From: Diprion similis
Taxonomy: Eukaryota; Arthropoda; Insecta; Hymenoptera; Diprionidae
DNA: 64,000 nucleotides
Reading direction: 5' to 3'
Assembly: GCF_021155765.1 (NCBI RefSeq)
Contig: NC_060114.1
Location: 10,383,001 to 10,447,000 of the forward strand
A model generated the notes under the pieces. It made no database searches. It was not told the origin of the DNA and saw only the letters and a list, made by a program, of their open reading frames with translations. This document shows, piece by piece, positions 16,944-53,118 of this stretch. How positions within the stretch are numbered: position 1 is the first letter of the stretch; every line of letters begins with the position of its first letter. The position numbers were made by a program, and so were the translations under genes.

Positions 16944-19900
16944 TCAAATAACCAAATTACCGTCTCCTTGTTTATCCGCTTTCGAATCCAAGGTAGTATC
17001 ACCTTCCTCATCGGGGGCATCAATGTCATCACCGGAAGTTTCAACGTCCACTTCGGTCAAATTTTCGAGTTCCGGTTCCTCTAGCAAAGCGTCAGTCTCG
17101 TTCGGTCCATCAACCGGAAGTCCATTTCCCTCAATATCTACGGTGTGACTGTCGTCCGAAACGTCACCGCGACTCCCGTCCGTGTCGAAAGAGGCGTTAG
17201 TAGCAAAGTATTTCAGCTCATAAGCGGCGAGTACGTCTGGAGCAGGTTGGTTCTGGGTATTCAAAGAAAACCTGCTGCACTGCGAGTCGCTCCTGTGCTT
17301 GTCGAAGGACCTCCGTCTGTTATCGTCCGACCTAGAGTGATAAAGCTGCCGACCATGCCGATGACGCCTGAATGGTAATTCCCCGGTGTCGGACCGCGGG
17401 CGAAATTCCACCTCCAATGTTCCGCTGGACAAGTGATCGGCGGTACACTTATCCATCGAGCACTTCCGATAGTCCTTCTTCCGTATGTCGGGAGACTTCC
17501 GGCAGTCCAAGCTTGCCTTTCTGTACCCAACCGGAGTTCTCTCGGTCTTTCTCACCTCGCCACCGACCCGATCTAGCGACATTTTTAGGAAATTCGGTGA
17601 CGAGATCTTCCTGAAATCCTTCGGGCTTCGCCGGAACTCAAGCTCCTCCAGCACCCGGAGGTCGACGGAGTTCCGCTTCCGAGAAACAAAGTCGTCCGGG
17701 TACTTCGCGAAGCTCTGGTACTTCCCCGCGTGCCCGCCGGCCGCCCCTTTGCGCAGCTCCATCTGCAAGTCGTCGTCGTCGATCCTCGTTTGTCTGAGCA
17801 GCTGATGGCGCTGAGCAGTGTCCGACCGGTCTTTTATCTTCAGAGTAACTGGGCCTCCCTTGTTCGGCATGTGGAGATCCATCGCCATCGATACCTGGCT
17901 CTCAGATGTCTTGTACTCGAGGCTCTCCTTGCTCATCTGCGGATTGTAAGCCGCGTTATCGACCGACATCGCGTGCCGCTTGAGTAGCTCGGCGTTCAGC
18001 AGCGCGCAGCCCGTGTACCGACTGGGCTTCTTGCGCGGCGAGTTTTTTACCGCAAGATTCGGGGCGCTCGGGCTCTTCTTTATCGGCTGAGGGTTGTTCT
18101 TCTCCTCCAAGTTCTTCGAGAACTGCATCAGCTCTGCCGTTAACTGCTTTCTCGAGACCTCGTGCGTCGACGGACTCGGGCTTCTGTGCACGCGGAACAG
18201 ACCCAGCTGGTGGTCCCACCGCGTTGTTTGACACGACGTTGACCTTCGACTTCGCTGCTTGTTGCTCTTGCACGGCGTGTTCTGGTTGAAACGAAAACGA
18301 GCCGGCACCACTTTCGCCGCGCTGTCTCGTGCCTCGAATGTCATCACGCAGGCCGCCACGACGATGAAACCTTGAAAATTTTTGGTTTTTCATTATTTTC
18401 AATTTCTCCATTTCACACTTTGGAATTTTTCATGATGAAGATTTTGATTTAAACTGATTTTAATTTTGCCCAATACTTCAAGTATCACGTGAAAGATATG
18501 CGCCGATTGCTAATGAAGTGAAACAGTCTGGAGTTACGATGCTCGAATTTTAAACTGAAATTTTCCTGTAATTTTTCCATTATTTCAATGTTTATTCCAG
18601 AAACAAGAAACTATAAATTAATTCCGTTAGACATAATATCTATATCAATTTTAATGATGAAATCAAAGAAATGTTTTTATTAATATTTCACGAACCACAG
18701 CCAATGATAAGATTTGAATCGTCACCAATTCAGATAGCAGTTATTTTCGAATGTAATTAAAGACAAGAATGCTAAAAATGCAGATCTAGAATGACCGGAA
18801 AAATCAGTTCTACTGTTCCAATATCACGAATCGAGATAGGAAAAAAATATTTTCACGATACTCGAATCACATTTTAGATTGATAAACCGTCCCACAAGAT
18901 ATTCATCTATGTAGCAGTCGTTCAAAAAGTGTGAACAATTTCATCCACTAAAGTGTTAAAAACTGGCAAACAGACGTCAATGACTAATAAATGTCAATGT
19001 TGAGACAAACTACGCGATCTAGTCATGCCGGCTTAAAATATTAGCTTTTATGCTTTCCATCTGTGTAGCCTCCATAGCTCAGGGGTTAGAGCACTGGTCT
19101 TGTAAACCAGGGGTCGAGAGTTCAAATCTCTCTGGGGGCAGACTCTTTTGTCTTTTTTTTTTTTGGTAGTTATAGAGTTTTGTGCACTCTGTTAGTCTTC
19201 TGATTTATATTATTAACATAAAACACAGGTTTCGAAATTCCTTCACCCGATAAAATACACGTTTCGATTATCATTGCGCACAACGCTGACGCTGTTCTAC
19301 ACGTAACTAAAGGGAACTTGCGCTCAACGGACACACTACACGCTGTTATAGATGTGTACATACATACATGGCATCGGATTTTAACCGTTTGAATACACGA
19401 TTACACGATACAATATGCCGTTATCGCGAATTGTATGCTGGCGGGAAAGTCTAGATAGTTTTGAAACGTCGTCGACGTCTGTTGCAGAAGTTATATGTCT
19501 GTTCTATTTCGATATAATAGGAGAAGAACAAAGCTGTCATCGATTAGACGGATTGAGAATCGAGTATTATGTATTGGAATTGTCACTCTGCAACGTAACA
19601 TCTGGTGGGAAAAATTAAACTAATGCAACCAGGCTGACAGCTGACTGTTGATAGTATAGTCTTTTTTCGCGTTTGAATAATAGAACAGGTATATTACTGA
19701 CTATGATTGATTAATTTATGTGACATGAGTGATTTGAAAGCCCGAGAATTACGATTTTCCTCTATTGAAATCAAAAACTTAGGTTATGTGGTGATAAAAT
19801 GGAGCCGACAACCAGGCTCTGACGTCGTGAGGAGATTTGCTGATATTATTATGCCGTGTTCCATTCTGTATTGTTTTGACTAGCTTCTAAAACATCAATG

Positions 19901-26700: not shown

Positions 26701-28587
26701 GCCACACCGTGGTTCCGAAAATCATGTGTCATTACACAATTATTGTTTGTTAAACAAGAAAGTTACACGGTTATGTAATTTAACGTGTCGGTTCGTTTTT
26801 TTTACACGAATTTTACAAAAATAGAATATCTCGGGATCGTTGAGTTTGTTAATAAACACGAAGATCAATCCGGTTACGATAATGTAAACGCAAAAACCGC
26901 ATCAAACGATGTAAACACTTGGCTAGATAACAGGATCCACATTAAATGATCAATCCAGCGCGTAGTGAAAAATGGATTATTTTTATATACCCTGAACTGT
27001 TAACACGTCGGATAAACACCTCACACATTGATTTTATGCTTTTTCTTATACACGCGAGTATTATTTTTTTTTTTTTTTTTAATTGTTTTTTATCTTGTTC
27101 TTGTTCTTCTTCTTCTCGACCAACGTTTTCAACCAGACTTTGGCAATTTGGGTGCGGCTGTGCTGATGAAATTGATGAACAAAAGGGATGACGGTGCACT
27201 GAATATTTGCGTTCCTTCGGGCTCTGAAGACTGGGAACCTGGATATGTTGTTCGAGGGAGTGTCTCCCTCGTCACCTGTTGGTTCGCCTACCCGGTCAGG
27301 ACAACCGGAGAGGAATCACGCAGCTCTGCGCATACGCAAACGCAGATCAATGTGTTATATTCCATGCTTGATGCTTCGAATATACTTTCTCATGGACCAC
27401 AATACCGCGTGCAGCTGGAGAATCACTACTGGTCCATAATCGCCAATTGCAGACGAATAACTGGATAGATGCATGTTTTAAGAAAGGTGAATACAACCGT
27501 TGACGGAAAATAGTTTTTAAAACAAAATATGTTAAATTTTCTTAAAAATATTGAACTATCGACGAACATAATTAATCTATTGCAGATCAATTGACATGTT
27601 GTTAAAGATCTGATCGAACTTTTAGGTGCACTGATTTCGTTGCGCCAAAAATTGTCTACCCAAAATTCACTGGAAAATGTTTGTAAATTGAAATTTTACT
27701 GAAAATTTTAACCCCGTTTTTTTAATTTTTTATGACTTTGTTTCTTGGATTTCTCTACTACAAATTTTTCAAGTTTCCAAACTTCACCGTGATTTTAAAA
27801 ATTCCCATTATCTGCAAAGTGATTTGCATTTGTTACCAAAGGTAGGCTAAAAATTTTGAAAACTTTTTTACGCAACAATGTTTACCCTTGAAATATAATC
27901 TACATAGATTTGTGGAGAAAAATGTTGACCAGTTGTTCTCTTTTTTTTGAGTCAGTATTATATGTACATTATATTTATAACCCGAGGTACAGAGTGAAAG
28001 AAAATTTATGAAATTTTCAGCGAGACCACGCTGTAAGTCAAAAGTTTGGAAAACCGTAGAATTCTAACGCTTATAGATAGTAGAACTGATTAAAATATTG
28101 ATTGGTCCCATTTTTTAGTTTGTAAGTAATTCGTGAGGCGAATTGTAATGCCGTTGCACTCACAATCAGTCATTCATGATAGCCTGATACTATTTGAATA
28201 ACACGACTGAAGCTCTTTGTGACAATTTAGAGTGAAGTTCAGTAATCCAAAATCATAAAAATAAACTATCTTCTATCTTCTAGAATTGCGTAATTGCAGC
28301 AACTTTGAGCCATCAAAGAAGAGAATCAAAATTCATATCACACCAATTTGTCGATCAGATTGGTGAGCTGCAGAGCTGCGGACAACCAGAGTCGATATCC
28401 ATCAATCGGGTATTTTCGTAATTGGAAAATATGCAACGCATGGATACGTTGAATACGTTGCTATTCAAAGCATGCTGTCATACCTCCTCGTATCTGAAGC
28501 CGGTATCCAATACTCGTAAAAGCACTTGCATGATAAGCGCCGATGCTTTTGCTGTCACCGTAAATGGACAGAGGCTAGATGATGCTA
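23766..28587. other. Gene-poor stretch upstream of the TMEM200-like gene
   Basis: No gene is confidently supported. The promoter and 5' UTR exon(s) of the TMEM200-like gene should lie at the left edge; a donor-like CAGAG|GTAAAA occurs on the minus strand near 23,855. A GC-richer patch at about 27,120-27,470 is open for 146 codons on the plus strand but shows no known domain. The rest is AT-rich with decayed, overlapping short frames. Confidence 0.35.
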
Positions 28588-29461
28588 TACAGGGTGTCTC
28601 ATTTTAATCAACCCCGTCAAATATTTCGAAAACCAATTAAGTTTAAATGAAAAATATTTCATACAAAAGTTGTAAGGTTCAAATATTTCCCCCAAGTAGA
28701 CACGCCAAGGACCAGACGATGGTCAACTTGCCTCTTTTTTTAATGGATCCTTATTTTTTTTCGTTGGCATCTGAAAGGGTATCAAATTCGACTGGTCAAT
28801 TTACTTATCCGGAAGGTTCCGGTCGCACTTGGTTCACGAGTTTTGCACGTTAAGCAGGATTCTTGGAAGAAAATACAAATATTCAGGAAAAAAGATAAAA
28901 GAGGCTGCAGCGAGAACGTTCGCGTTGCGGCCCCTGTAAGATGCACGCCTCTGCGAATCCTTCTTAACATCCAAATCTCATGAACCAAGTACGACGGGAA
29001 CCTTCCGTAGCAACTTGACCGGCTCGTATCTCATTACCGGTTGAGTTTAGGCGGTAATTAAGGTCTTTTGTATGCAGGGCCTTTCTGACGCAGTATTTGA
29101 TGCCCTTGCAGATGACGATGAAAAAAATTTACCGTTCCGGACACGTGCGAGTAAGACTTGCACCCTGATGGTTCCATACAGACTGATTATTTTTTTATTT
29201 TTGTCTGATATAGCTACAAATTAACTATTTTTCGACTTTTTTCTTTAATTGGTACGGGAGATAGCCTATAATTTTGATTTGATCAAAACATGTGACGTAA
29301 ACGGCCGTATCTTTTGATTGCGTTGACTTATCGTTGGAAGCTGGAATTTTTCTGTCTTCTGTCCTACTTTGACCCTTACAACTTTTGTCCGAAAAATTTT
29401 TCACTCGTGCTTTTGATTCTCGAGATACTTGACTTGATTGATTAAAATGAGACACGCTGTA
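28588..29461. mobile_element. Non-autonomous DNA transposon with long TIRs, 874 bp
   Basis: The left end (TACAGGGTGTCTCATTTTAA) is repeated inverted at the right end (TACAGCGTGTCTCATTTTAA read on the other strand), with one mismatch in the first 24 bp. The inverted similarity continues for about 95 bp at roughly three quarters identity. Both ends are flanked by TA (28586-28587 and 29462-29463), as expected for Tc1/mariner-type insertion. No transposase is encoded, so it would depend on a related autonomous element. Confidence 0.75.
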
Positions 29462-29463
29462 TA

Positions 29464-30608: not shown

Positions 30609-30728
30609 GGCAACGGCCATACCACGTTGAAAGCACCGGTTCTCGTCCGATCACCGAAGTTAAGCAACATTGGGCGCGGTCAGTACTTGGATGGGTGACC
30701 GCTTGGGAACACCGCGTGCCGTTGGCAT
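30609..30728 (+). rRNA. 5S rRNA, plus-strand copy 1
   Basis: The 120-nt sequence starts GGCAACGGCCATACCACG and ends GCCGTTGGCAT, with complementary termini (helix I) and the conserved GTTCTCGTCCGATCACCGAA and GGTGACCGCTTGGGAACACC blocks. A T-run follows directly (RNA polymerase III terminator). The spacer upstream of this first copy is diverged from the array consensus. Confidence 0.96.
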
Positions 30729-30804
30729 CTTTTTTTTCCCAAAGATGGATCCAACATTTGGCACCATTTTTAGGGATATGAAAATGCAGAGATTCCTCTC
30801 CTAC

Positions 30805-30924
30805 GGCAACGGCCATACCACGTTGAAAGCACCGGTTCTCGTCCGATCACCGAAGTTAAGCAACATTGGGCGCGGTCAGTACTTGGATGGGTGACCGCTT
30901 GGGAACACCGCGTGCCGTTGGCAT
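30805..30924 (+). rRNA. 5S rRNA, plus-strand copy 2
   Basis: It is identical by eye to copy 1 and starts exactly 196 bp later. A T-run at 30926-30933 is the terminator. The repeat spacer fades into unrelated sequence at about 30,973. Confidence 0.96.
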
Positions 30925-33641: not shown

Positions 33642-34051
33642 AATGTGAAGCCCTAACTGTCTCGAGGGTCTCGAACACTTCTGGTCGTCACCATATCCAG
33701 AGCTCGACTGACAAATCTGAAACCCAGCGCGCTACGTTTCTGCCCGATTGTAGCGCCCCCGACTCCAGTGGCTAATCCAAGAAACTTTTGACAGATGATA
33801 CAGGGTCTGCTACTCTTACACACCTCCCACATAATTCAACTCAAACCTCTATCTATAGGTACCGTAACAAAGATATTTAATTGCAATTACCGACCTGGCA
33901 GTTACAATTGGGTCAGTAATTGCAATAGCGGATACAACGGGGTCAGTAATTGCAAAAAGACCGCCGGTTCAGCCGGTTAAGTTTATAAATTTGTAAATGA
34001 GTGAATAAATAAATAAATGAATAGCTAAACAAATAAACAGTTAATTCAAGT
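33642..34051. other. Gap between foldback element and 5S array, with short internal repeats
   Basis: GGTCAGTAATTGCAA occurs twice (about 33911 and 33940), and an inverted relative (TGCAATTACCGACC) lies at about 33882. A (TAAA)-rich simple repeat precedes the truncated 5S copy at about 34,000-34,020. No gene is seen. Confidence 0.5.
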
Positions 34052-34114
34052 AATGTTGCTTAACTTCGGTGATCGGACGAGAACCGGTGCATTCAACATG
34101 GTATGGCCGTTGTC
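34052..34114 (-). pseudogene. Truncated, mutated 5S rRNA copy at array edge
   Basis: Only about the first 63 nt (5' half) of a 5S gene are present. The 3' half is replaced by A/T-rich non-5S sequence. By eye it carries at least three substitutions relative to the intact copies, and the internal promoter is incomplete. It is a dead boundary copy. Confidence 0.9.
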
Positions 34115-34190
34115 GAAGGTGAGGGATCTCTGCTTTCTCAGATCCTCAAAAATGGTGCCAAAAGTTGGATCTCTCTTTGGGAAAAAAAAG

Positions 34191-34310
34191 ATGCCAACGG
34201 CACGCGGTGTTCCCAAGCGGTCACCCATCCAAGTACTGACCGCGCCCAATGTTGCTTAACTTCGGTGATCGGACGAGAACCGGTGCTTTCAACGTGGTAT
34301 GGCCGTTGCC
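34191..34310 (-). rRNA. 5S rRNA, minus-strand copy 2
   Basis: A full 120-nt 5S gene on the minus strand, identical by eye to the plus-strand copies. An A-run at 34183-34190 is a T-run terminator on the coding strand. Confidence 0.96.
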
Positions 34311-34386
34311 GAAGGAGACGAATTTCTGCATATTCATATCCTTAAAAATGGTACCAAATGTTGGATCCGTCTTTGGGAAAAAAAAG

Positions 34387-34506
34387 ATGCCAACGGCACG
34401 CGGTGTTCCCAAGCGGTCACCCATCCAAGTACTGACCGCGCCCAATGTTGCTTAACTTCGGTGATCGGACGAGAACCGGTGCTTTCAACGTGGTATGGCC
34501 GTTGCC
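34387..34506 (-). rRNA. 5S rRNA, minus-strand copy 3
   Basis: A full 120-nt gene, 196 bp from its neighbour and identical by eye to copy 2, with a T-run terminator on the coding strand. Confidence 0.96.
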
Positions 34507-34582
34507 GAAGGAGAGGGATCTCTGCTTTCTCAGATCCTCAAAAATGGTGCCAAAAGTTGGATCTCTCTTTGGGAAAAAAAAG

Positions 34583-34702
34583 ATGCCAACGGCACGCGGT
34601 GTTCCCAAGCGGTCACCCATCCAAGTACTGACCGCGCCCAATGTTGCTTAACTTCGGTGATCGGACGAGAACCGGTGCTTTCAACGTGGTATGGCCGTTG
34701 CC
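34583..34702 (-). rRNA. 5S rRNA, minus-strand copy 4
   Basis: A full 120-nt gene in the 196-bp register, identical by eye to copy 2, with a T-run terminator on the coding strand. Confidence 0.96.
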
Positions 34703-34778
34703 GAAGGAGAGGGATCTCTGCTTTCTCAGATCCTCAAAAATGGTGCCAAAAGTTGGATCTCTCTTTGGGAAAAAAAAG

Positions 34779-34874
34779 ATGCCAACGGCACGCGGTGTTC
34801 CCAAGCGGTCACCCATCCAAGTACTGACCGCGCCCAATGTTGCTTAACTTCGGTGATCGGACGAGAACCGGTGC
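34779..34874 (-). pseudogene. 5S rRNA copy 5, 3' part (nt 25-120), split by retrotransposon
   Basis: This is the downstream part of the interrupted 5S gene. It keeps the whole internal control region and the T-run terminator but begins at nt 25, directly after the retrotransposon poly(A) tail. Its missing 5' part is at 40733-40770. Confidence 0.95.
34861..34874 (-). repeat. Target-site duplication, 3' copy
   Basis: On the 5S sense strand this reads GCACCGGTTCTCGT (5S nt 25-38). It abuts the poly(A) tail of the retrotransposon and is repeated exactly at 40733-40746. It could be up to 17 bp long because the three A residues before it are indistinguishable from the tail. Confidence 0.93.
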
Positions 34875-35292
34875 TTTTTTTTTTTTTTTTTTTTTTTTTA
34901 AAGAAGTTTATTCGTAGGAAGCCATTCAATACAATATTCACATGTACCTTACAAATGTAGAGTAATATTAAACACGGAAAAACCTCGAAAACGTGTTATC
35001 ACTATGGAATTAAGATTAGGTCGCTGTGGCTCGCAGGTGCGAGCACTAACCGACTAACTTTTCGTGTACTCAAATAAATTTGTACTTTTCATACGATCAG
35101 TGTGAAAGTGTTTATCCTCCGAGGTAGCAGAGCACGTTCATTCAGACTTTTTACGGTTGGATCAGGAAAAAGGCCGGAAAATCTGATCGATCCTTATTTC
35201 TTATTCTTTCTTAACCTAACCTTAACTCTATATTTACACTTACATGATTATAATTAGTTAAGTTGAGACTAGATTTTTTTTTTTTTTTCTAC

Positions 35293-38200
35293 TTAGGGTT
35301 TTTTATCCAACCACCAGAAAGTTTTGATATTTTGTCTGTGTTCATCGGTTCTATCTTTCGTCGGGAGAGAGGGGTTAAACCTTATCAACGTATTGTCTCT
35401 ATCTTCGCAGTTTAGGTTTGGGTCGTACTGAATTTTCTTGTCGTGATTGCCTCTGAACACGTGGTAGATGGTTGGGATATTATTTTTATCTTGGATGTAG
35501 CCTTCGCTGTCGAGGTAAAGGAAAGTCTCCGGCGGTATGAATCCTGATTCTAACGTTTTCTTGAAGTACATAGGATTCGGGAGGGTCGGTCCCGAGATAA
35601 GACTGTTACTCCTAATCTTAGCTGCATTCGCGAAATGCCGTCTGATCAGTTTTAGTACGAAGCAGTCGATTCGGTGCACCTTTGCATCTTCGTATATTTT
35701 TAGATTGCTAATCAATCTAACATATGCCGACGATGCCGACCTCCATTTACCTAGACAGGCTCTTAAGCATTTTCTTTCAAAGATCCTTATTTTTTCCATC
35801 ATTCCACAGCTTATGTTAAACCAGATTTGGCATCCGTAAGTAATAATAGGTCTAATTAATACTAGATAACAGAGTACTTTTATTCGCGGTTCCAGGTATC
35901 GACAGTAGAACAGCCGGTTCGCCATGTTAAATGCATTTTTAGCTTTGCCTAGTTGGATGTTGATGTGCGTGTTAAATTTCAATTGGAAGTCAATGTTTAT
36001 TCCTAGGTATTTAACCGCGGTCTTGTGCGGAACTTGCGAACCTGCGTTATCACTGTCGGATATCTGGAACGTTTTCCAATTTCTGCGCGCATCTTTCGTT
36101 AGATGTGTAAGGTTCGGCCGGAATAGAACTGTTTCACATTTTGTGGTGTTAATCTTAAGCTTCCATGAATGATAGTAATCTATTACTTTTCTAAACAAGT
36201 TTTCCAATTTAAGCTTCATCTGTGAAGGCTTTTTGCCCGTTACATATATTAATAGGTCATCCGCAAACGCAATGGCCTTCTTTGTGGGTTCCGTATTCAA
36301 TTCAAACAGGCTTAGAATGTCACTATTAAAGACGTTGAACAGTATAGGTGAATTTACTGTGCCTTGCTGCAGGCCGTTTTCGATTGTAAATGTTTTAGTC
36401 GATGAGTTGTTCCCATCTGTAACTATGAATTTTTTATCGTGAAGCATGACCCATAACATTTTAATCAATTCTTTTGGGAATCTTTTTTTTATTAGCTTGT
36501 ACAACAGCCCATCGAGCCAGACGGTGTCAAATGCTTTTTCTAGGTCGATAAAGCAGGCAGCTACGCATTCGTTGTTGTTGAGTGACCAGCATATGTCCGA
36601 AGTGAACTTGTTTACGGCGTGCAGCGTGGAGTGCCTGTGTCTAAAGCCAAATTGCGTTTCCGGAATTACCTCATTCTGGTCACAAAATTGTGTCAGGGAT
36701 GTGTTAATGACTGATTCGAATATTTTACTGATGTTAGGTAGCAGGCTTATCGGCCTGTAACTCGTGGGGTTGGTACTATCTTTGTCTTTTTTCAGTAGCG
36801 CGATCACCTTGGCTGTTTTCCAGCTGGTAGGGAAATACGTATTATTCAGTGCATTGTTAAATAGAATACAGTAGCTTTTTATCATCTTTTCAGGAAGATG
36901 TTTTAAGACGATGTTTGGTACGTTGTCATATCCAGCTGATTTTTGTTGCTAAGGCTTCTGAATATCTTGAGCAGTTCTGCGTGTGAAGTGAAGTAGGCGG
37001 AGGGGATATCGCATCTAGGGCCGAAAGCTGGATTTCGCTCTGTGAAAGTGGTAAGTGTTTTTCCTTGTATATGATCGCTCATGATTTCGTTTTTTAAGTC
37101 ATTAGCCGTTTTAGTTATTAACCGTGTTAACTGTTCTTTACCCAAGTTATCATTTTGAATGTTTGTGGCTGCAAAATGCGCCCCTATCACGTTCAGTTTA
37201 TCCGTTTGATTAGTAATGACATATTTACGGTCTACACCTATTTTTTGAGCCTCAGGAGGTAATCCTGCCTCGGTTAGTAGTTGTCTTTTTTCTTGAGGAA
37301 TGGTTAGAGTCGGGATTTGCGTTGATCCGCGAGGTCTGAACAGCCTATTTATTTGCGGGAATAATTGGTCCGGCTTGTCCGATGCTATATTTTGAATTTT
37401 CTTTTCCCAGTGCTCGTTTATAGATTTCTTTAGTTTTTCGTTGATCTTTTTTCTGGTGATCTTTAATAAGTCTTTTAACATATTCAATCTAACTAAATTG
37501 CCTATCGGGTTTGCTTTGTGTAGTCTATTGATTTGATTAATAATGAAGGTTTTATGCTTGAGTAGCTCTTTAATTTCGTGAGTGGTGTATGCGGTTAACG
37601 TGTTTTTTGACTTGGCTTTTGGCACCTTTTTAGCTATGGCGTTTGTAATAGTATTCTCTAATTCATTTAGAAATTGGTCTATCTCGCGGTTCGTTAGATT
37701 CTTAGCATGCGGGATATTCGTGTCTTCTGTATTTTCAAGGTATTTTTGAAAAGCATCCCATTTGGTCTTAGCAAAGTTGAATTTAATGCGTGGCTGTTTT
37801 TTTTCCAAACAAAAGGGTAGGCCAGAGATGAAAGAGACGGTGACTTTTATTGCGTTGTGGTCGCTGTCGTACGGCAGTGACTCGATCTTTTTATTATCAA
37901 CGACGTTATGAAATGTTAACCTTTGATCCGCGATGCATACGTCTAAGAATGAGTTCCCTCTGGGATACGAAGGTACGGAAGAGCAAAATAGCTTCGATCT
38001 CAGATCGATCTCATTCTCAGCCACCCATTTGTTCAGAGCTACTCCTCTAGGGTTGTTGATGGCGTTCAACCATGAAGTGTGCTTAGCGTTTAGATCCCCG
38101 GCTAGTATGTACAGATTCCTAGGTTCGTTTAGTCTTAGTTCTTCGCATAACCTCGTTAGCTCTGGGATGAGTTCCGTTTTGCCATTACCCGCTGCATACC

Positions 38201-38558
38201 CCGAAATAATGTATAGGTTGTAGTTCCGGTTTATCTTTACTTTGATAACCGATGCTTCTAGGGTTTGAGCACTTGATAAGCAAGCAGGATTTATTTCTTG
38301 GAATTTAATTTCGTTCTTAACGAGTATGGCTGTTCCACCACCCTGAATAGCATTAGGACGATCGTTTCTGATAATTGTATAGTTTTCTATGTTAACTTTG
38401 TACTTTTTGCTCAACTTAGTTTCACCCAACAGCACAAAATCCGGGTTTTGGTTTTCAATGAGGTGTTTTAGGTTCATCCTCCTTTGAATTGCTATCAATG
38501 AGTTTACGTTTATTGATATAATATTGAGTTTATCCAGAGTCAGGTTGTTTTCACTCAT
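35293..38558 (-). pseudogene. Retrotransposon ORF2: endonuclease-reverse transcriptase, one frameshift
   Basis: ORF2 starts with an ATG overlapping the ORF1 stop by 8 nt (ATGAGTGA), suggesting stop-restart translation. Residues 1-235 form an APE-type endonuclease with N17, E46, the GDLNAKH motif (D155, N157) and SDHN (D233, H234), all intact; this nicks target DNA. The reverse transcriptase follows, with SYRPISLLP, a GFRHRHST block, an AFDTVW motif and catalytic FADD, then a C-terminal region ending in a WW-containing tail. The frame runs to a stop at 36903 after 551 codons and resumes in another frame down to 35293. The shift lies at or near an A5 run at about 36940-36945, consistent with a single-base indel or sequencing error. 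The product would prime reverse transcription at the nicked target. Confidence 0.92.
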
Positions 38559-40533
38559 TGTTGATTGGCAGGGCTATGATTTGGGTAAATAGCTCGAATA
38601 ATTTTTGGATATTCTGCGCGTTTGTTGACACCGCTTCCTGGATTTTCTGCAGTTGGGCACTGATTCCGTTCAAGCTTGGGGTGTTTATATTTTGAAAATC
38701 AGTTATGGAAGAGGTGGCTGCGCTGTTCTGATTTCTATTATCATGGCTTATCTCTAGATTATGGTTTTGGTTAGCATGCTGGTTATTAGACGCTATGTTT
38801 ATTGCGGCTACCTCACTGTATGATATCTTAGGGTCTACGCTATTTGCTATTTTATTTATCTTTGCTAATCTATTTTTTTCGTTCACTTCTAGTTTCTTTT
38901 TTATGCTTAGGTTATACTCGACTAGTTTCGGGCAACCGCGGTAAGACGCTGGGTGCCCGTACTCTTTACAGTGGACACAATATATCAAGGATTTATCGGT
39001 TAGGCCGTCGTCTTTTTGGATCTTGCACTCGCCTGGTCCGTGAGTTTCTTTGCATTTAACGCATCGGTAGCCTAGGTTACAGTTCGCCGCTACATGCCCT
39101 ATTCGTTGGCAACGTTTGCATTGTATTTTATCCTTTTTTTTCAAAGCTTCCCATTTCACCGATTGATAAAGTATCTTAGAGATGTTGCCTAGTTTAGAGA
39201 GATTGCTGTCAGCTGAGAGTTTTACCAGAAACATCGGCAGTGTTTTGTTAGATTTTTTTGCGTTTAGCGTTACGAAGTTAGACACACTTAGAAATTTTAG
39301 GTCGTCAACATTGCTGGATTTGAGGTTTTCCAATATATCTGCGGGGGAAAATCCTCCGTCAATACCTTTGAGCACTACGGTTTTAGTTTTATCCTCGTAA
39401 GGTGTAAACGTGAAAAAATCTAGCTTTCTTTCTCTCATTATCTTACAAACTTTTTTGTATTCTGACAGTGATTCAACCGAGATTATATGTTTATTGTGTC
39501 TGATTCGTTTGATATGGAAGTCTTTGAAGCCCAATGTGCAAGTCATAAAATTAGATAATACTAGCGCAGACTGGTTTAAAGCTATAATGGGTGGGGGTTT
39601 GTTAATTTTTTTACGTTTCTGAACCGAATGTGGACTGTCGTTGACACTGGTCTGCTGATCGTGGGGTTGTCGTGTCCGTTGATTTGTTTTATCGCTGGTG
39701 CGGCGATCGTCTGAAGTGTGTGAAGCCCCCACTGTGTCCGTATCGTCTTGGTCAGCTGCTGCTCCGGTGTTAGAGGATGTGGATGCTTGGTCAAGGCCGA
39801 GATGCCCAGGGAAGTTTGGTACTTCCACATAACTCGTACCATCATCGATGGTGTTGATCAATAGATCGATATTTTGATTTTTTTCTTTCGGCCTTGCTGT
39901 TCCTCCTTGAGGCGTATAGATCTGCGGTACCGAGTCTCTATTTACTCTGTTCCAGGATGCGATTTCGGATGACAGATTTGCATTGAGTTTCTTGAGCTCT
40001 TCTATTTCTTGTAGTGCATTCATTAATTTAAGCTCAAGGTTTGCTGGGGTAGTAATTTTGATGCTTGCCGACTGCGTGGCTTCCGTTTGTGGGTTGGTGA
40101 TCTCTAGGTGATGGGCGAGATTTTTGTGGCTTTGGCGTTCATTCTCTGAACCCGGGCTTTCGGCTTCTGTCGCAGGTTTGTTTTGTTCGCGAGGTGCGAC
40201 AGTTGATGTTTCTTGCGTTTTCATTGTGGTTGGTTTTTTTCTTACAACGAGATTCGGTTTGATTGAGTACCTCGAGTTCTTTGGTTTTTTTTCCAGCTGC
40301 GTGATTTTTCTTGCTTGCGGCGTTAATTGGCATAGTCCAGACGGTTTTGTCATTTTTTCGGAAGGGAGAGTGTTGTCGCTCAGCGACTCGTCAGTAATCT
40401 CATCTTCTTCCTTGTTTAAGCCAGGTTGAACTGAACACTCACCCGATATGTCGGAAATTTTCCTTTTGTTTGCGCCCAAACTTTTATGCGGCGGTAGCAT
40501 GGCTTTTAAGGGTTTTTTTTGGACCCTGTGCAT
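38551..40533 (-). CDS. Retrotransposon ORF1: gag-like nucleic-acid-binding protein, 660 aa
   Basis: ORF1 is uninterrupted at 660 residues. The first 300 are low-complexity and polar (Gln/Ser/Thr/Asp) with a possible short coiled coil at about 166-190. Residues about 310-470 match the PRE_C2HC-type region found ahead of the zinc knuckles in Jockey-clade gag proteins. Three CCHC knuckles follow (C472-C475-H480-C485, C491-C494-H498-C503, C519-C522-H527-C534), which bind the element RNA. The ATG at 40533 is the first in frame. The stop is shared with the ORF2 start through an 8-nt overlap. Confidence 0.92.
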   Translation of the reverse strand: MHRVQKKPLKAMLPPHKSLGANKRKISDISGECSVQPGLNKEEDEITDESLSDNTLPSEKMTKPSGLCQLTPQARKITQLEKKPKNSRYSIKPNLVVRKKPTTMKTQETSTVAPREQNKPATEAESPGSENERQSHKNLAHHLEITNPQTEATQSASIKITTPANLELKLMNALQEIEELKKLNANLSSEIASWNRVNRDSVPQIYTPQGGTARPKEKNQNIDLLINTIDDGTSYVEVPNFPGHLGLDQASTSSNTGAAADQDDTDTVGASHTSDDRRTSDKTNQRTRQPHDQQTSVNDSPHSVQKRKKINKPPPIIALNQSALVLSNFMTCTLGFKDFHIKRIRHNKHIISVESLSEYKKVCKIMRERKLDFFTFTPYEDKTKTVVLKGIDGGFSPADILENLKSSNVDDLKFLSVSNFVTLNAKKSNKTLPMFLVKLSADSNLSKLGNISKILYQSVKWEALKKKDKIQCKRCQRIGHVAANCNLGYRCVKCKETHGPGECKIQKDDGLTDKSLIYCVHCKEYGHPASYRGCPKLVEYNLSIKKKLEVNEKNRLAKINKIANSVDPKISYSEVAAINIASNNQHANQNHNLEISHDNRNQNSAATSSITDFQNINTPSLNGISAQLQKIQEAVSTNAQNIQKLFELFTQIIALPINNE

Positions 40534-40732
40534 TGGGGGCGGTGGGGTAGTACCCCGTGCCCCACTTTAGCGGTAATTGAGGGCTTGCAGCGCTTTTGGG
40601 CCCTGTACACGGTAACAAATGACTCAAGTTAAATATTTCGCTATGTTCAGGTTGGGTATCACCGAAATGGTAAGTTGGGCCTTACCCACCCGCTAAGCAC
40701 ATCCTCACCGGACGAGAGGTAAGAGGCAACTC
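40534..40732 (-). promoter_or_regulatory. Retrotransposon 5' UTR (probable internal promoter)
   Basis: About 199 bp lie between the 5S junction and the ORF1 ATG. Jockey-clade elements carry their promoter inside the transcribed 5' UTR, so promoter activity here is inferred from family knowledge. The first 35 bp contain TCTCGTCCG, which also occurs in the 5S gene just beside the insertion site. Confidence 0.6.
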
Positions 40733-40770
40733 ACGAGAACCGGTGCTTTCAACGTGGTATGGCCGTTGCC
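40733..40770 (-). pseudogene. 5S rRNA copy 5, 5' part (nt 1-38), split by retrotransposon
   Basis: The first 38 nt of the interrupted 5S gene sit upstream of the element on the minus strand. The last 14 (40733-40746) are the 5' copy of the target-site duplication. With 34779-34874 it accounts for the complete 120-nt gene. Confidence 0.95.
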
Positions 40771-40846
40771 GAAGGAGACGGATCTCTGCTTCCAGAGATT
40801 CTTAAAAATGGTGCCAAATGTTGGATCCATCTCTGGGAAAAAAAAG

Positions 40847-40966
40847 ATGCCAACGGCACGCGGTGTTCCCAAGCGGTCACCCATCCAAGTACTGACCGCG
40901 CCCAATGTTGCTTAACTTCGGTGATCGGACGAGAACCGGTGCTTTCAACGTGGTATGGCCGTTGCC
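40847..40966 (-). rRNA. 5S rRNA, minus-strand copy 6
   Basis: A full 120-nt gene with complementary ends and the internal promoter, and a T-run terminator on the coding strand. It is the first intact copy beyond the retrotransposon. Confidence 0.96.
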
Positions 40967-41042
40967 GAAGGAGAGGAATCTCTGCATATTGATATCCCTA
41001 AAAATGGTGCCAAATGTTGGATCCAACTTTGGGTAAAAAAAG

Positions 41043-41162
41043 ATGCCAACGGCACGCGGTGTTCCCAAGCGGTCACCCATCCAAGTACTGACCGCGCCCA
41101 ATGTTGCTTAACTTCGGTGATCGGACGAGAACCGGTGCTTTCAACGTGGTATGGCCGTTGCC
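41043..41162 (-). rRNA. 5S rRNA, minus-strand copy 7
   Basis: A full 120-nt gene in register, with a T-run terminator (TTTTTTT on the coding strand). Confidence 0.96.
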
Positions 41163-41238
41163 GAAGGAGAGGAATCTCTGCATATTGATATCCCTAAAAA
41201 TGGTGCCAAATGTTGGATCCAACTTTGGGTAAAAAAAG

Positions 41239-41358
41239 ATGCCAACGGCACGCGGTGTTCCCAAGCGGTCACCCATCCAAGTACTGACCGCGCCCAATGT
41301 TGCTTAACTTCGGTGATCGGACGAGAACCGGTGCTTTCAACGTGGTATGGCCGTTGCC
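41239..41358 (-). rRNA. 5S rRNA, minus-strand copy 8
   Basis: A full 120-nt gene. Its repeat unit is identical by eye to those of copies 7 and 9, spacer included. Confidence 0.96.
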
Positions 41359-41434
41359 GAAGGAGAGGAATCTCTGCATATTGATATCCCTAAAAATGGT
41401 GCCAAATGTTGGATCCAACTTTGGGTAAAAAAAG

Positions 41435-41554
41435 ATGCCAACGGCACGCGGTGTTCCCAAGCGGTCACCCATCCAAGTACTGACCGCGCCCAATGTTGCT
41501 TAACTTCGGTGATCGGACGAGAACCGGTGCTTTCAACGTGGTATGGCCGTTGCC
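41435..41554 (-). rRNA. 5S rRNA, minus-strand copy 9
   Basis: A full 120-nt gene. The spacer type changes between this copy and copy 10. Confidence 0.96.
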
Positions 41555-41630
41555 GAAGGAGAGGGATCTCTGCTTCCAGAGATCCTTAAAAATGGTGCCA
41601 AATGTTGGATCCATCTTTGGAAAAAAAAAG

Positions 41631-41750
41631 ATGCCAACGGCACGCGGTGTTCCCAAGCGGTCACCCATCCAAGTACTGACCGCGCCCAATGTTGCTTAAC
41701 TTCGGTGATCGGACGAGAACCGGTGCTTTCAACGTGGTATGGCCGTTGCC
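41631..41750 (-). rRNA. 5S rRNA, minus-strand copy 10
   Basis: A full 120-nt gene with the TTCCAGAGATCC spacer type and a nine-T terminator run. Confidence 0.96.
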
Positions 41751-41826
41751 GAAGGAGAGGGATCTCTGCTTCCAGAGATCCTTAAAAATGGTGCCAAATG
41801 TTGGATCCATCTTTGGAAAAAAAAAG

Positions 41827-41946
41827 ATGCCAACGGCACGCGGTGTTCCCAAGCGGTCACCCATCCAAGTACTGACCGCGCCCAATGTTGCTTAACTTCG
41901 GTGATCGGACGAGAACCGGTGCTTTCAACGTGGTATGGCCGTTGCC
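41827..41946 (-). rRNA. 5S rRNA, minus-strand copy 11 (array end)
   Basis: A full 120-nt gene, the outermost copy of the right block. Only the first ~25 bp of the upstream spacer remain before unique sequence. Confidence 0.96.
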
Positions 41947-43606: not shown

Positions 43607-46600
43607 CTAATGACAACCTAAAACAGCTGCTAACTCTTTTACCTGATCCCGATTTGCATGCATGAATGCCTTTGCTTCCCAAATCATGTTGACCAGCTTC
43701 TCATCACTTCGCTCATCCATCGGAATTTCATCCGACATTTGAGGACTAAATCTGTAATACGGAACGCCAATCATGGAACACCAGGTTCTCGCGCGATCTA
43801 CAACACGACCGTCACTCGCCGTAGCTTGATCTACCAGAAGAGTTCCCAATGCAGACATTCCCATGGCAAGTTTCGCCGTATCCCAAAGACTCTCAGGCCT
43901 GAAGACGTCAATTTCTCTCAACTGCGATACCGGTATGAGCCCAGTCCCCAGAGAGACGACCAAGGAAATAGGTTTCACTTCATCCTCTCTGCCCATGGCT
44001 CGCAATGCCAAATTGTACTCGTGTATTTCCGTCATCGCATCTAGTGTTGGGTTGTTCGCTATCAATCCTCCATCAAGAAATCGCCCAAAAGCTCTGAAGT
44101 ACGATGGTGCTGCTCCCGTCGCTCTAGCAGCTCGCCAGACAAGCTGGCGATCCGGTGGAAATGTTTCCTTGAACTTTCCACTGGGTGGAATGCCAAGCAC
44201 AACACTTGGAGAATCGTAATTTCGAAACAAGTGCAGATCTACAGGCTTTCTGTCTGCCAAAACGCCAGTTATCATCAATTTAGGGTGTTCGATATCAGAC
44301 ATCAATGTGTGAGTGCCCAGTGCTGCCTTCAGAATGTTCTCTAGTCCCTCACTGGAGTAGGGCCTCGGACCCACGAACGCGTTTTCCTTCATCCGGAAAT
44401 ACAAAGCTTGACATTCCTTCAAAGTCTTACCGGTCGCCAAGCCCAGTGCCAATATTCCGCCCGTCGAAGTGCCCGCGATCCAATCAAAGCAGTGAATCAC
44501 TGGCTTGTTAAGGACTGACTCAATTTCTAATAAGGTTTGTACCAAAACCAGCCCCCTTATACCTCCGCCATCCAGACAAAGCAAACGTCCACCTTCCACC
44601 TTTCTTTTCTTCTGTGTGGACAGTTCCTCCATCCCAGCAACATACAGCATCTGATCTAAAATTGTTCTAGGAACTGAGGTTGGGGGCTCAGGCGGCGCTT
44701 CTCCGTCAAAGTTTTCAAGGTGTTTACAGCCTATGTGGCATCCTTCCATATCCGGAGGACACCGCTGTGCTCCAACAGCATGGAGAATGTAAAGTACTTT
44801 CCTTCCGTCGGCATTGGCTTCAATGGGAGTGAGATGTCGCGGAGTTTCCCCCTTGTAATTCGCTGCATCTATGTCTGCTCCAAAACCAAGCAGAGCCTGA
44901 ACTATAAACGGCGTAGCCTGGCTGACGGCCAGATGCAAAGGAGTGTTTCCCTCATTATCGAGGATGTTTACAGACGCCATGTGGCTCAACAGAGCCACGG
45001 TACAGTTCAATCTCTTCCGCATTACCATGATATGCAGCGCGGTTCTACCATCGAAATTCAGAGCGTCAATATCACAGTTCGTTTCTATCAGGGCGTCTAT
45101 TACCTCTCGACTGCAGGACCAATGTAAAGGAGTTCCACCAAACTTCATGTCCTGAGAATGCAGAGCGTTTGGTTTGTCATGCAAAAAGTCACCGACATAT
45201 CCAGGACTCGTTGGCTGACCTGCACTGGCGGGAATATTTACGTCTGCTCCAATCAGTAACAAAGCTTTTACGCACTCTGGTTTATCGGAGAGGCAAGCAA
45301 CATGCATCGGAGTGTGCCCGTTGCCGTTTCTACTGTTGAGGCTATTCGGTAAACCAGCGCCGAGTGCAAGAATTATATCCTTGGTTGAATTGGCGGCGTA
45401 ATGATAAACCGTGTTGGCATTGTGGTCTAAATGCTCAAGGGAACTTTGGGCTGCTACCAACATTTGAACAATTCTCAAGTTGTTCGTTTGAACCGCTACC
45501 TGAAGCGGCGACATTCCTGTTGCTGGGTCGCTGCTGTTAAGGTGGCTGTTCACTGCTGTATGGTGCAACGCGTCGTACAACGAAAGGTGGGCTGCCAGAT
45601 GAGCGAGGGTCCATGTTGGATGCTCCGTAAGGACGTCGCACAGTCGACGAATTCCATTTGTGTTGCACAACTAACGAATAGAACCATAAGCAAGATTTAT
45701 TGTTAGATTATCGTAAAAGAACATTGCATCGTTTCAATACCAGAATGTATAAGTAATAAAATTGTTCAATTTTTATTTTAACCCAATTCGATAACTAAAA
45801 AAGTTAGAAAGGATCTCACAAAAGCACTTGCAGAATAAAAGAACTATTCAACGTTAAACTGTTGCTTAAGAATAAGAGTTTGGATCATTTCACACAAAAA
45901 TGTATAAATAATCATTAAAATCCTTGTAAGGCTTAACCCAGAGTCTTGACACCTGGGAAAGTTTGTGTTGAAAAATGCAGAAAAAATTATAAAATTGTTG
46001 GAGCAGATGTTTATTATGATAAATTAGCCAAACCCTCACCTCTCTAGAGATTTGTACGAGAATGGGAACCTTGTCTTTATAGACAGTGAAGATGTTCTCT
46101 GCTGGCTCCAAAGTATCCGACCGAAGGAGACTGAAAATTAAAAAAATTAAATATTACATGTATTTTGCATCATGGATTTTATTTCTGATTAACTTAGCAG
46201 ATATTTTTTACAAAGGTATAGTTAAAATGGTAATTACTGATATAATAGTCTGCTTGTAATTTTTCCTTATCCATCCTAACATCCATATCGAAATGAAAAA
46301 TGATACTCGCATAACAGAATATCGTATATTGAACCAAATTACTCAATGCTTATAAAAACCACAAAAAATTTGTAATACATCATTCATAGCTTTGGTAGAT
46401 GTTTTTCAGTACCAATTTCAATTTATTTACCTTTAATGTAGCTCTGTAATCTAACTGCAAATCAATACTGATTAGTTTTGTGAGATAATTCCAAGGCAAT
46501 TTAAGCACAGAATTTGTAGCGCATCGACGATCACGTATGGCTGATTGAATTTGAGCGTAAGCCGCACGTGACATTGCGAATGTGAATTATAAAAGATTGA

Positions 46601-50373: not shown

Positions 50374-53118
50374 ATGGACTGGCTGGGGAATTTGACCAAC
50401 GATTCCGCGGTTCTTCGTAATATATTAGGGCTGGATGCTAAGCCGAATAAAGTCTTGGAAGTTAAACCTGAACAATATGAAAATCGCACAGTATTGTCTC
50501 GACAAGGGAAGATCTATTTGTATGGACCGGACAACCAGCAGAAGGAAAAGTATGAAATAGTTCTGTGTGGATCTTGCACCAAAAACCCTGACCAGCTTTA
50601 CAGGTTCGTTTGGTATTAATACTGAAATTATTGTTAATTATAGTGCACGAACTAAAACCTAATCTTTCCTCTTAATGTTTTCAGTATCTTTCGGTCAAAT
50701 ACTTTGGAACCTGCAGAGAAGCTCTTTGCAGTCTTCAAAGACAAGGTTCCGGTTCTGGTTCAAATCTCTAAAGATGTAAGAGTGATCTTATATGATCTGT
50801 TTATTTATCATGAGCGCATATTTACTTCTCATTTTTTTTCACTCCACAAACATCATTCTTTAAATACCTCCTCTTTTGTTTATTTTATTTTTTATAGAGT
50901 ACAGTTTCATTTAGTAAAAAGAGCAATATGCCGAAAAGAGAAAAAAAAGTAATTCTGTGTTCTTCTCTGATCATTTGTGTGAATATTTTTCCTCTTTCTT
51001 GTAAATGTGTATCAAACGAACGTTGAATGTTTATTTTCTTTGTTTCACAATTAGCTGTGCAGCACAAGTGGAATCGGTAAGCTGTGCGACCTCCTGACAA
51101 ATCATCCGACATGGACATTGGCTCACTTAGCGGCCCATCTTTTGCTTTATGACGCATTTGTCTACGCAGCCGTAAATAGCCATGTAAACACCAGTGATCA
51201 GACATCCGGAGTATCGCCTCTTCAAATCGCAATCAAAGCAAACAACTTGAAGATGGTTCAGTTGCTCTTAGCAGCCAAAAGTTCCCTCGATCATTTGGAC
51301 CACAATGCAAACACTGTCTATCATTATGCGGTGCATGCAAGTTCAGAGATAATTATGGCCCTTGGTCCAAGTGCTCAGAACAGCCTCAACGCCAGAAACA
51401 GCAGCGGATACACACCTCTGCACGTTGCCTGCCATGCCAATAAACCAGAGTCTGTTAAGGCTCTGCTTTTAATTGGGGCCGATGTGAATATTCCCCCAGT
51501 GGAGGGTAAACCAAAAACACCTGGCTACGTGGGTGAATTCCTACGCGACAAGCCAGATGCCCTAAATTCGAATGAAATGAAATATGGTGGATCTCCGTTA
51601 CACTGGTCCACGAGTAGAGAAACGATCAATGCCTTGATAGAACAGAATTGCGACGTCGACCTTGTCAACTTTGATGGAAGAACCGCCCTGCACATTATGG
51701 TATTGAAAAACAAACTAGAGTGCGTCGTTGCTCTGCTGACACAAATGGCGTCTGTTGATATCGTTGATAAGGATGGAAATACTCCATTGCATCACGCCGT
51801 AGTTCACGCTAGTCCAGCCATAGTTCAAGCACTCATTGGATTCGGTGCAGACATCAATGTAGCAAATCACAAAGGCGAAACACCTAGGCATCTCGTTAAC
51901 ATAAAGGACAACACTGAAGGGAAGAAGGTCCTTTATATCCTACATGCCGTTGGAGCACAGCGATGTTCTCCTGAGATGGAAGGATGCCACATAGGCTGCG
52001 GTTACAACGAAAACTTCAATGGCGAAGCGCCGCCTGAGCCTTCCTCAGCAGCTTCTAGAGCGGTCTTGGATCAAGTTCTATATACTGCGAGTGCAAAGAA
52101 CCAGGCTTTGAAGGGCGAGTGTAGACTCGACGGTGGACGTCTGTTGTGCCTCGATGGTGGCGGCATTCGTGGGCTAGTCTTGGTACAAATCCTTTTGGAA
52201 ATCGAGTCTGTGATCAAAAAACCAATTGTTGAATGTTTCGACTGGATTGCTGGGACTTCAACAGGTGGTATTTTAGCCTTAGGTCTAGCAGTTGGCAAGA
52301 GTTTGAAGGAGTGCATAGGGATATACTTTGATGTAAAGGACAAAGCTTTTGTAGGCAAAAGACCCTACGACAGTGAAGGCCTGGAGACCATTTTGAAAAA
52401 TGCAGTCGGTACTGAAACAGTAATGGCTCAAATTAAGCACCCAAAATTGATGATAACTGGAGTGTTGGCAGACAGAATGCCAGTGGATCTGCATTTGTTT
52501 AGAAATTATGAATCTCCAAACACTCTGCTCGGAGTTCCGCCTAGCGGAAAGTTCATGGAGACACACCCGCCAGAGCGTCAGCTTGTTTGGCGAGCTGCTA
52601 GAGCCACGGGAGCAGCTCCTTCGTACTTCAGAGCGTTCGGAAAGTTTCTTGATGGAGGATTAATCGCGAATAATCCTACACTGGATGCTTTGACAGAAAT
52701 AAATGAGTACAATCTGGCACTTGAAGCTGTCGGAAGAACAGACGAAGTGAAACCTGTTTCTCTTGTCGTCTCGCTGGGTACTGGTCTCATTCCAGTACAA
52801 GAGCTTAAGAACATCGACGTCTTTATACCAGAAAGTCTTTGGGACACACCGAAAGTTGCTAAAGGCTTGAGTGCGTTGGGAGCTCTGTTGGTCGATCAAG
52901 CCACAGCAAGTGATGGTCGCCTTGTCGATCGTGCAAAATCATGGTGCTCGATGATCGGCGTTCCTTATTTCCGATTCAATCCTCAAATGTCGGAGGAAAT
53001 ATCGATGGATGAAAAGAGCGACGAGAAGATTGTTCAAATGATGTGGGAAGTCAAGGCATTCATGCACGCTCATCAAAATGAAGTAAAGAAACTGGCTGCT
53101 ATATTTGAGGATCAGTGA
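50374..53118 (+). CDS. iPLA2-VIA: Calcium-independent phospholipase A2 (group VI, PLA2G6-like), paralogue B, 794 aa
   Basis: Three coding exons (50374-50603, 50685-50775, 51055-53118; phases 2 and 0) give 794 residues. Exons 2 and 3 have exactly the same lengths as in paralogue A (91 and 2064 nt). Domains are the same: ankyrin repeats (signatures TPLHVAC, SPLHWST, TALHIMV, TPLHHAV) and a patatin domain with DGGGIRG, GTSTG (Ser about 509) and DGG (Asp about 640), so the Ser-Asp dyad is complete and activity is expected. The start ATG (MDWLGN) is preceded by an in-frame TTG that I did not use. The gene lies head to head with paralogue A, whose start is 3.46 kb away, which suggests an inverted duplication. 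The two proteins differ at many sites, so the duplication is not recent. Which copy is the orthologue of the single Drosophila gene cannot be decided here. Confidence 0.94.

Follow-up and report, generated by a model that had tools for sequence, protein, structure and literature searches.

The window analysed here, a stretch of 64,000 nucleotides of the Diprion similis genome (GCF_021155765.1, contig NC_060114.1, positions 10,383,001 to 10,447,000), contains two blocks of 5S rRNA genes with opposite orientation: a plus-strand pair at 30609-30923 and, about 3 kb away, a longer minus-strand array of tandem repeats with a unit of 196 bp (Table 1). Besides one interrupted gene, Rfam searches of the window identified 11 complete, uninterrupted 5S genes, all identical in sequence, and one truncated copy. 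A first-pass annotation of this DNA had counted 11 further copies including the truncated one; the number had to be corrected, while the statement that these copies carry no insertions was upheld. The truncated copy, located at the array edge (34032-34114, minus strand), is diverged and passes into unrelated A/T-rich sequence after approximately nt 63. The spacers within 34115-41827 are of several sequence types, grouped in runs, and the types flanking the inserted element differ between its two sides.

Other features of the window are a lone tRNA-Thr (TGT) gene at 19068-19140 (plus strand) and a palindromic transposon-like element at 28586-29463, in which the 51-nt arms of the terminal inverted repeats are 84% complementary and further inverted repeats are nested. 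In the central loop of the palindromic element, Rfam matched CPEB3_ribozyme at 28890-28964 on the plus strand (35.6 bits, the cut-off being 35), with a helix P2 that by eye seems broken. Two mutually similar open frames of 687 aa are found in opposite orientation at 43607-45670 (minus strand) and 51055-53118 (plus strand); we take them to resemble ankyrin-repeat, patatin-type phospholipases.

Table 1. Features of the interrupted 5S rRNA gene, its array and the inserted element (positions in the window).
Feature	Position	Strand	Remarks
5S array receiving the element	34032..41946	-	9 complete genes, one truncated, one interrupted
Interrupted 5S gene, 3' fragment (nt 25-119)	34780..34874	-	identical to nt 25-119 of the array gene
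Target-site duplication, 3'-side copy	34861..34874	-	5S nt 25-38
Whole non-LTR retrotransposon	34875..40732	-	5,858 bp with its 25-nt poly(A) tail, which lies at the low-coordinate (3') end
ORF2 second frame, reverse transcriptase and C-terminal part	35293..36948	-	RVT_1, E 2.8e-40 (above Pfam cut-off)
ORF2 first frame, APE-type endonuclease	36903..38558	-	Exo_endo_phos_2, E 6.9e-14 (above Pfam cut-off)
ORF1	38551..40533	-	660 aa, open; three zinc-knuckle motifs at residues 472, 491 and 519
Target-site duplication, 5'-side copy	40733..40746	-	5S nt 25-38; to 40749 if 17 bp
Interrupted 5S gene, 5' fragment (nt 1-38)	40733..40770	-	from junction reading

The interrupted 5S gene hosts a non-LTR retrotransposon with a poly(A) tail of 25 uninterrupted A's, in the same orientation as the gene itself. 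Both junctions were read, so that the insertion, its site, its orientation and the duplication at its ends were observed directly. When the flanks were joined in silico, by excising the element together with one repeat copy, an intact 5S gene of 119 nt was obtained; the region of the 3' fragment also gave an Rfam 5S match (34790-34885, 52.3 bits). The target-site duplication is perfect and is 14 bp long (5S nt 25-38), or 17 bp long (5S nt 22-38) if the A's common to tail and target are counted: 5S nt 22-24 read AAA and run into the poly(A) tail without a break. The extent of the element, its two junctions, its tail and the orientation shared with the 5S gene had been proposed in the first-pass annotation, and all were borne out; the 14-bp duplication proposed there was also found, 17 bp being the alternative reading.

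The insertion of a LINE into a 5S gene is real and, because the tail is clean and the duplication perfect, it is probably recent. An artefact of assembly that fused the element to 5S repeats is very improbable: assembly of tandem 5S arrays is difficult, and spacer types do change from one side of the element to the other, but the perfect duplication, the clean tail and a whole 5S gene that can be restored are marks of retrotransposition and not of a chimera.

The element starts with a 5' UTR of 199 nt followed by an open ORF1, both as previously described. Matches of ORF1 to zf-CCHC and PRE_C2HC were both below the Pfam cut-offs (E 0.031 for PRE_C2HC). ORF1 and ORF2 share 8 nt where the first ends and the second starts. 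ORF2, which had been reported as complete, proved to be frameshifted: its endonuclease frame stops at 36903, its reverse transcriptase (RT) frame is open from 36948, and the break lies within or close to an A5 run at 36940-36944. With the endonuclease and RT halves of ORF2 in different frames, the assembled copy falls short of being fully intact; the shift may be a mutation or a homopolymer error. Downstream from the RT frame there are 418 nt, tail included. The C-terminal 252 aa of this frame matched no Pfam family at E up to 10, and structure predictions from the single sequences were poor (mean pLDDT 40.1 and 33.5). The catalytic motifs were chosen by eye from the same sequence and do not count as independent evidence.

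The RT and APE-type endonuclease domains, observed directly, identify the element as a LINE of the APE type, as do the 14-17 bp duplication and the 3' tail of 25 A's. Pfam gave no RNase H match in the RT frame, in line with the absence of this domain that characterizes the Jockey clade, and the RT motifs presumably resemble those of Jockey RTs. In searches by sequence among solved structures, the best matches of the RT were LINE-1 (E 1.1e-11), another RNA-directed DNA polymerase (E 1.2e-11) and then R2. For the endonuclease, the best PDB match was a bacterial-type exodeoxyribonuclease (E 0.0018), followed by LINE-1 endonucleases at E 0.044 or higher; the 14 PDB sequences matching it at E up to 10 included none from R1 or TRAS1. 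A type I ORF1, as described in PMC4120745, consists of one or more RRMs followed by CCHC knuckles and occurs in other clades besides Jockey. Compared with this layout, the present ORF1 has three knuckle motifs and the sub-threshold PRE_C2HC and zf-CCHC matches, and its predicted models are too poor for RRMs to be recognized. The first-pass description of a Jockey-like LINE in a 5S gene is well supported in its anatomy (ORF1 knuckles, APE-type endonuclease, RT, tail and duplication), while the Jockey label, as judged from sequence, is probable.

The first 30 nt of the element have a 9-mer in common with 5S nt 33-41. The same alignment score against the whole 5S gene was reached by 64 of 1,166 element windows of the same size and by 218 of 2,000 shuffles, and nine identical letters were found in 2 of 292 sampled windows, one of them the element's first; against 5S nt 18-45 alone, the least ordinary of these counts, the score was reached by 27 of 1,943 overlapping windows. 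After these several looks, a 5S-derived 5' end was rejected as chance. Rfam gave no match to a 5' ribozyme at E up to 1 within 40000-40800, and the predicted folds of the element ends were ordinary (the 5' end was equalled by 27 and the 3' end by 38 of 200 shuffles).

Relatives were searched for in other collections. None was found in viral_contigs by protein, by junction pattern or by two degenerate RT patterns, a result that says little because the bare 5S target likewise gives 0 there. In genome_contigs, the junction pattern found none, and the protein search gave 8 pattern matches, none of which was confirmed. By tblastn, 2 of 50,697 phage records matched at less than 30% identity and 45 of 72,556 plasmid records at less than 60%; among the best 20 of these 45, 14 carry a group II intron RT annotation.

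The element was compared with known systems. R1 is also an APE-type LINE in an arthropod rRNA gene and produces a 14-bp duplication, but it targets 28S rRNA genes, at another site. Insect Jockey-clade LINEs have in common with the present element an ORF1 with three CCHC motifs, an APE endonuclease, an RT, no RNase H match and a poly(A) tail; unlike it, they as a rule lack sequence specificity, most having no fixed target. Mutsu, by contrast with the insect elements, is a fish element and belongs to the Tx1 clade. Mutsu, of zebrafish, is described as a two-ORF non-LTR element of approximately 5.5 kb that targets 5S genes (PMC11202950, PMC3706591).

The share of the window taken up by 5S genes bears on the chance of such a landing. 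Of the 58,142 bp that lie outside the element, 5S gene intervals occupy 1,509 (2.6%), and they hold 13 of the 2,944 A/T runs of at least three (0.44%) and none of the 1,196 runs of at least four found there. Twelve of the 13 are the AAA at nt 22-24 (in the 11 complete genes and the interrupted one), which is the sole A/T run of three within a complete 5S gene; the thirteenth belongs to the truncated copy, in its degenerate end. A T7-T9 run and a T5 run were present in all 10 minus-strand spacers examined, and the element is nonetheless within the gene. For any given insertion, a landing in a 5S gene by chance is unlikely; it keeps some weight here because the case was selected for its oddity.

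A non-specific Jockey-like LINE could have landed by chance at the only TTT primer site of the gene, the redundancy of the array making the insertion harmless, so that it was retained. The generic APE endonuclease and poly(A) tail are what such an element would have, and a generic T-priming LINE would arrive at nt 22-24 anyway, so that the exact nucleotide of insertion weighs little alone. The window contains a single copy of the element (tblastn gave nothing else below E 0.7), and its 11 complete 5S genes are empty, both of which count against targeting. Set against the small share of bases and A/T runs that 5S genes occupy, these points leave a chance landing with somewhat less than an even chance.

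Further evidence comes from the beetle genus Tribolium. In T. freemani, one type of 5S array is described as regularly interrupted by segments of approximately 5 kb that are Jockey-like elements; these are mostly associated with 5S genes, and the copies elsewhere are slightly more divergent (PMC11202950, 2024). According to the same source, 32 of 113 T. freemani 5S copies are without 30 bp at the gene start, occur exclusively in the Jockey-like arrays and are termed pseudogenes by the authors. T. castaneum also has short 5S copies, with 30 bases missing at the end, yet without Jockey-like elements (PMC11202950). The association of Jockey-like elements with 5S arrays is already known from T. 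freemani. The elements there share with ours, in so far as the published description goes, a similar size, the Jockey-like label and a location in insect 5S arrays with 5'-short 5S copies alongside; unlike the present array, those of T. freemani also contain satellite DNA.

An insertion at about nt 24 leaves a 5S gene minus its first 24 nt, and for this reason the short T. freemani copies may be 5S fragments produced by insertion at about the same site, a reading that is ours and not that paper's; short copies could also have become numerous if a single inserted unit was amplified. Of the two insect cases, only the present element allowed us to read the junctions base by base. To our knowledge, it is the second known insect case of Jockey-like elements in 5S arrays, after T. 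freemani. Among the matches listed in our literature search, which covered mainly freely accessible papers, no report of such elements in insect 5S arrays appeared besides PMC11202950.

The T. freemani case speaks against a chance landing and makes a 5S-associated Jockey-like lineage more credible; the first-pass annotation had raised a distinct 5S-targeting lineage on the condition that the family always enters at 5S nt 24/25. Our preferred reading, to which we give a probability of roughly 0.55, is that the family of the D. similis element prefers 5S genes at the insertion site, a habit like that of the T. freemani Jockey-like elements. The wider proposal that one Jockey-lineage family recognises 5S at about nt 24 in at least two insect lineages, with the 32 short T. 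freemani copies as its 3' flanks, is put forward tentatively.

Elements of this class are established to insert by target-primed reverse transcription: the bottom strand is nicked, synthesis is primed on the element RNA, and cleavage of the top strand downstream results in the duplication (PMC2881922). By this route a young Jockey-like LINE would have entered the 5S gene. From the junctions we infer a bottom-strand nick by its APE-type endonuclease, placed after the TTT that faces 5S nt 22-24 or no more than 3 bases off. The T-ended primer may then have paired with the poly(A) tail and begun cDNA synthesis, and a cut of the top strand after nt 38 would generate the duplication of 14-17 bp. Both the clade and the target preference in this scheme keep the strengths given above.

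The insertion lies, we assume, upstream of the 5S internal promoter. Since it would part the 5S start from that promoter, the interrupted gene very probably cannot make normal 5S RNA, and it would retain the promoter downstream from the poly(A) tract. A 5S-specific Jockey-like lineage, if true, would represent a further origin of the target habit, with another target, and would extend target-sequence specificity to a clade other than the early-branched, Tx1 and R1 groups, in which most reported cases are found. Such a lineage would account for the odd T. freemani 5S 'pseudogenes' as well, and its endonuclease, with a conserved small RNA gene as target, would be open to testing.
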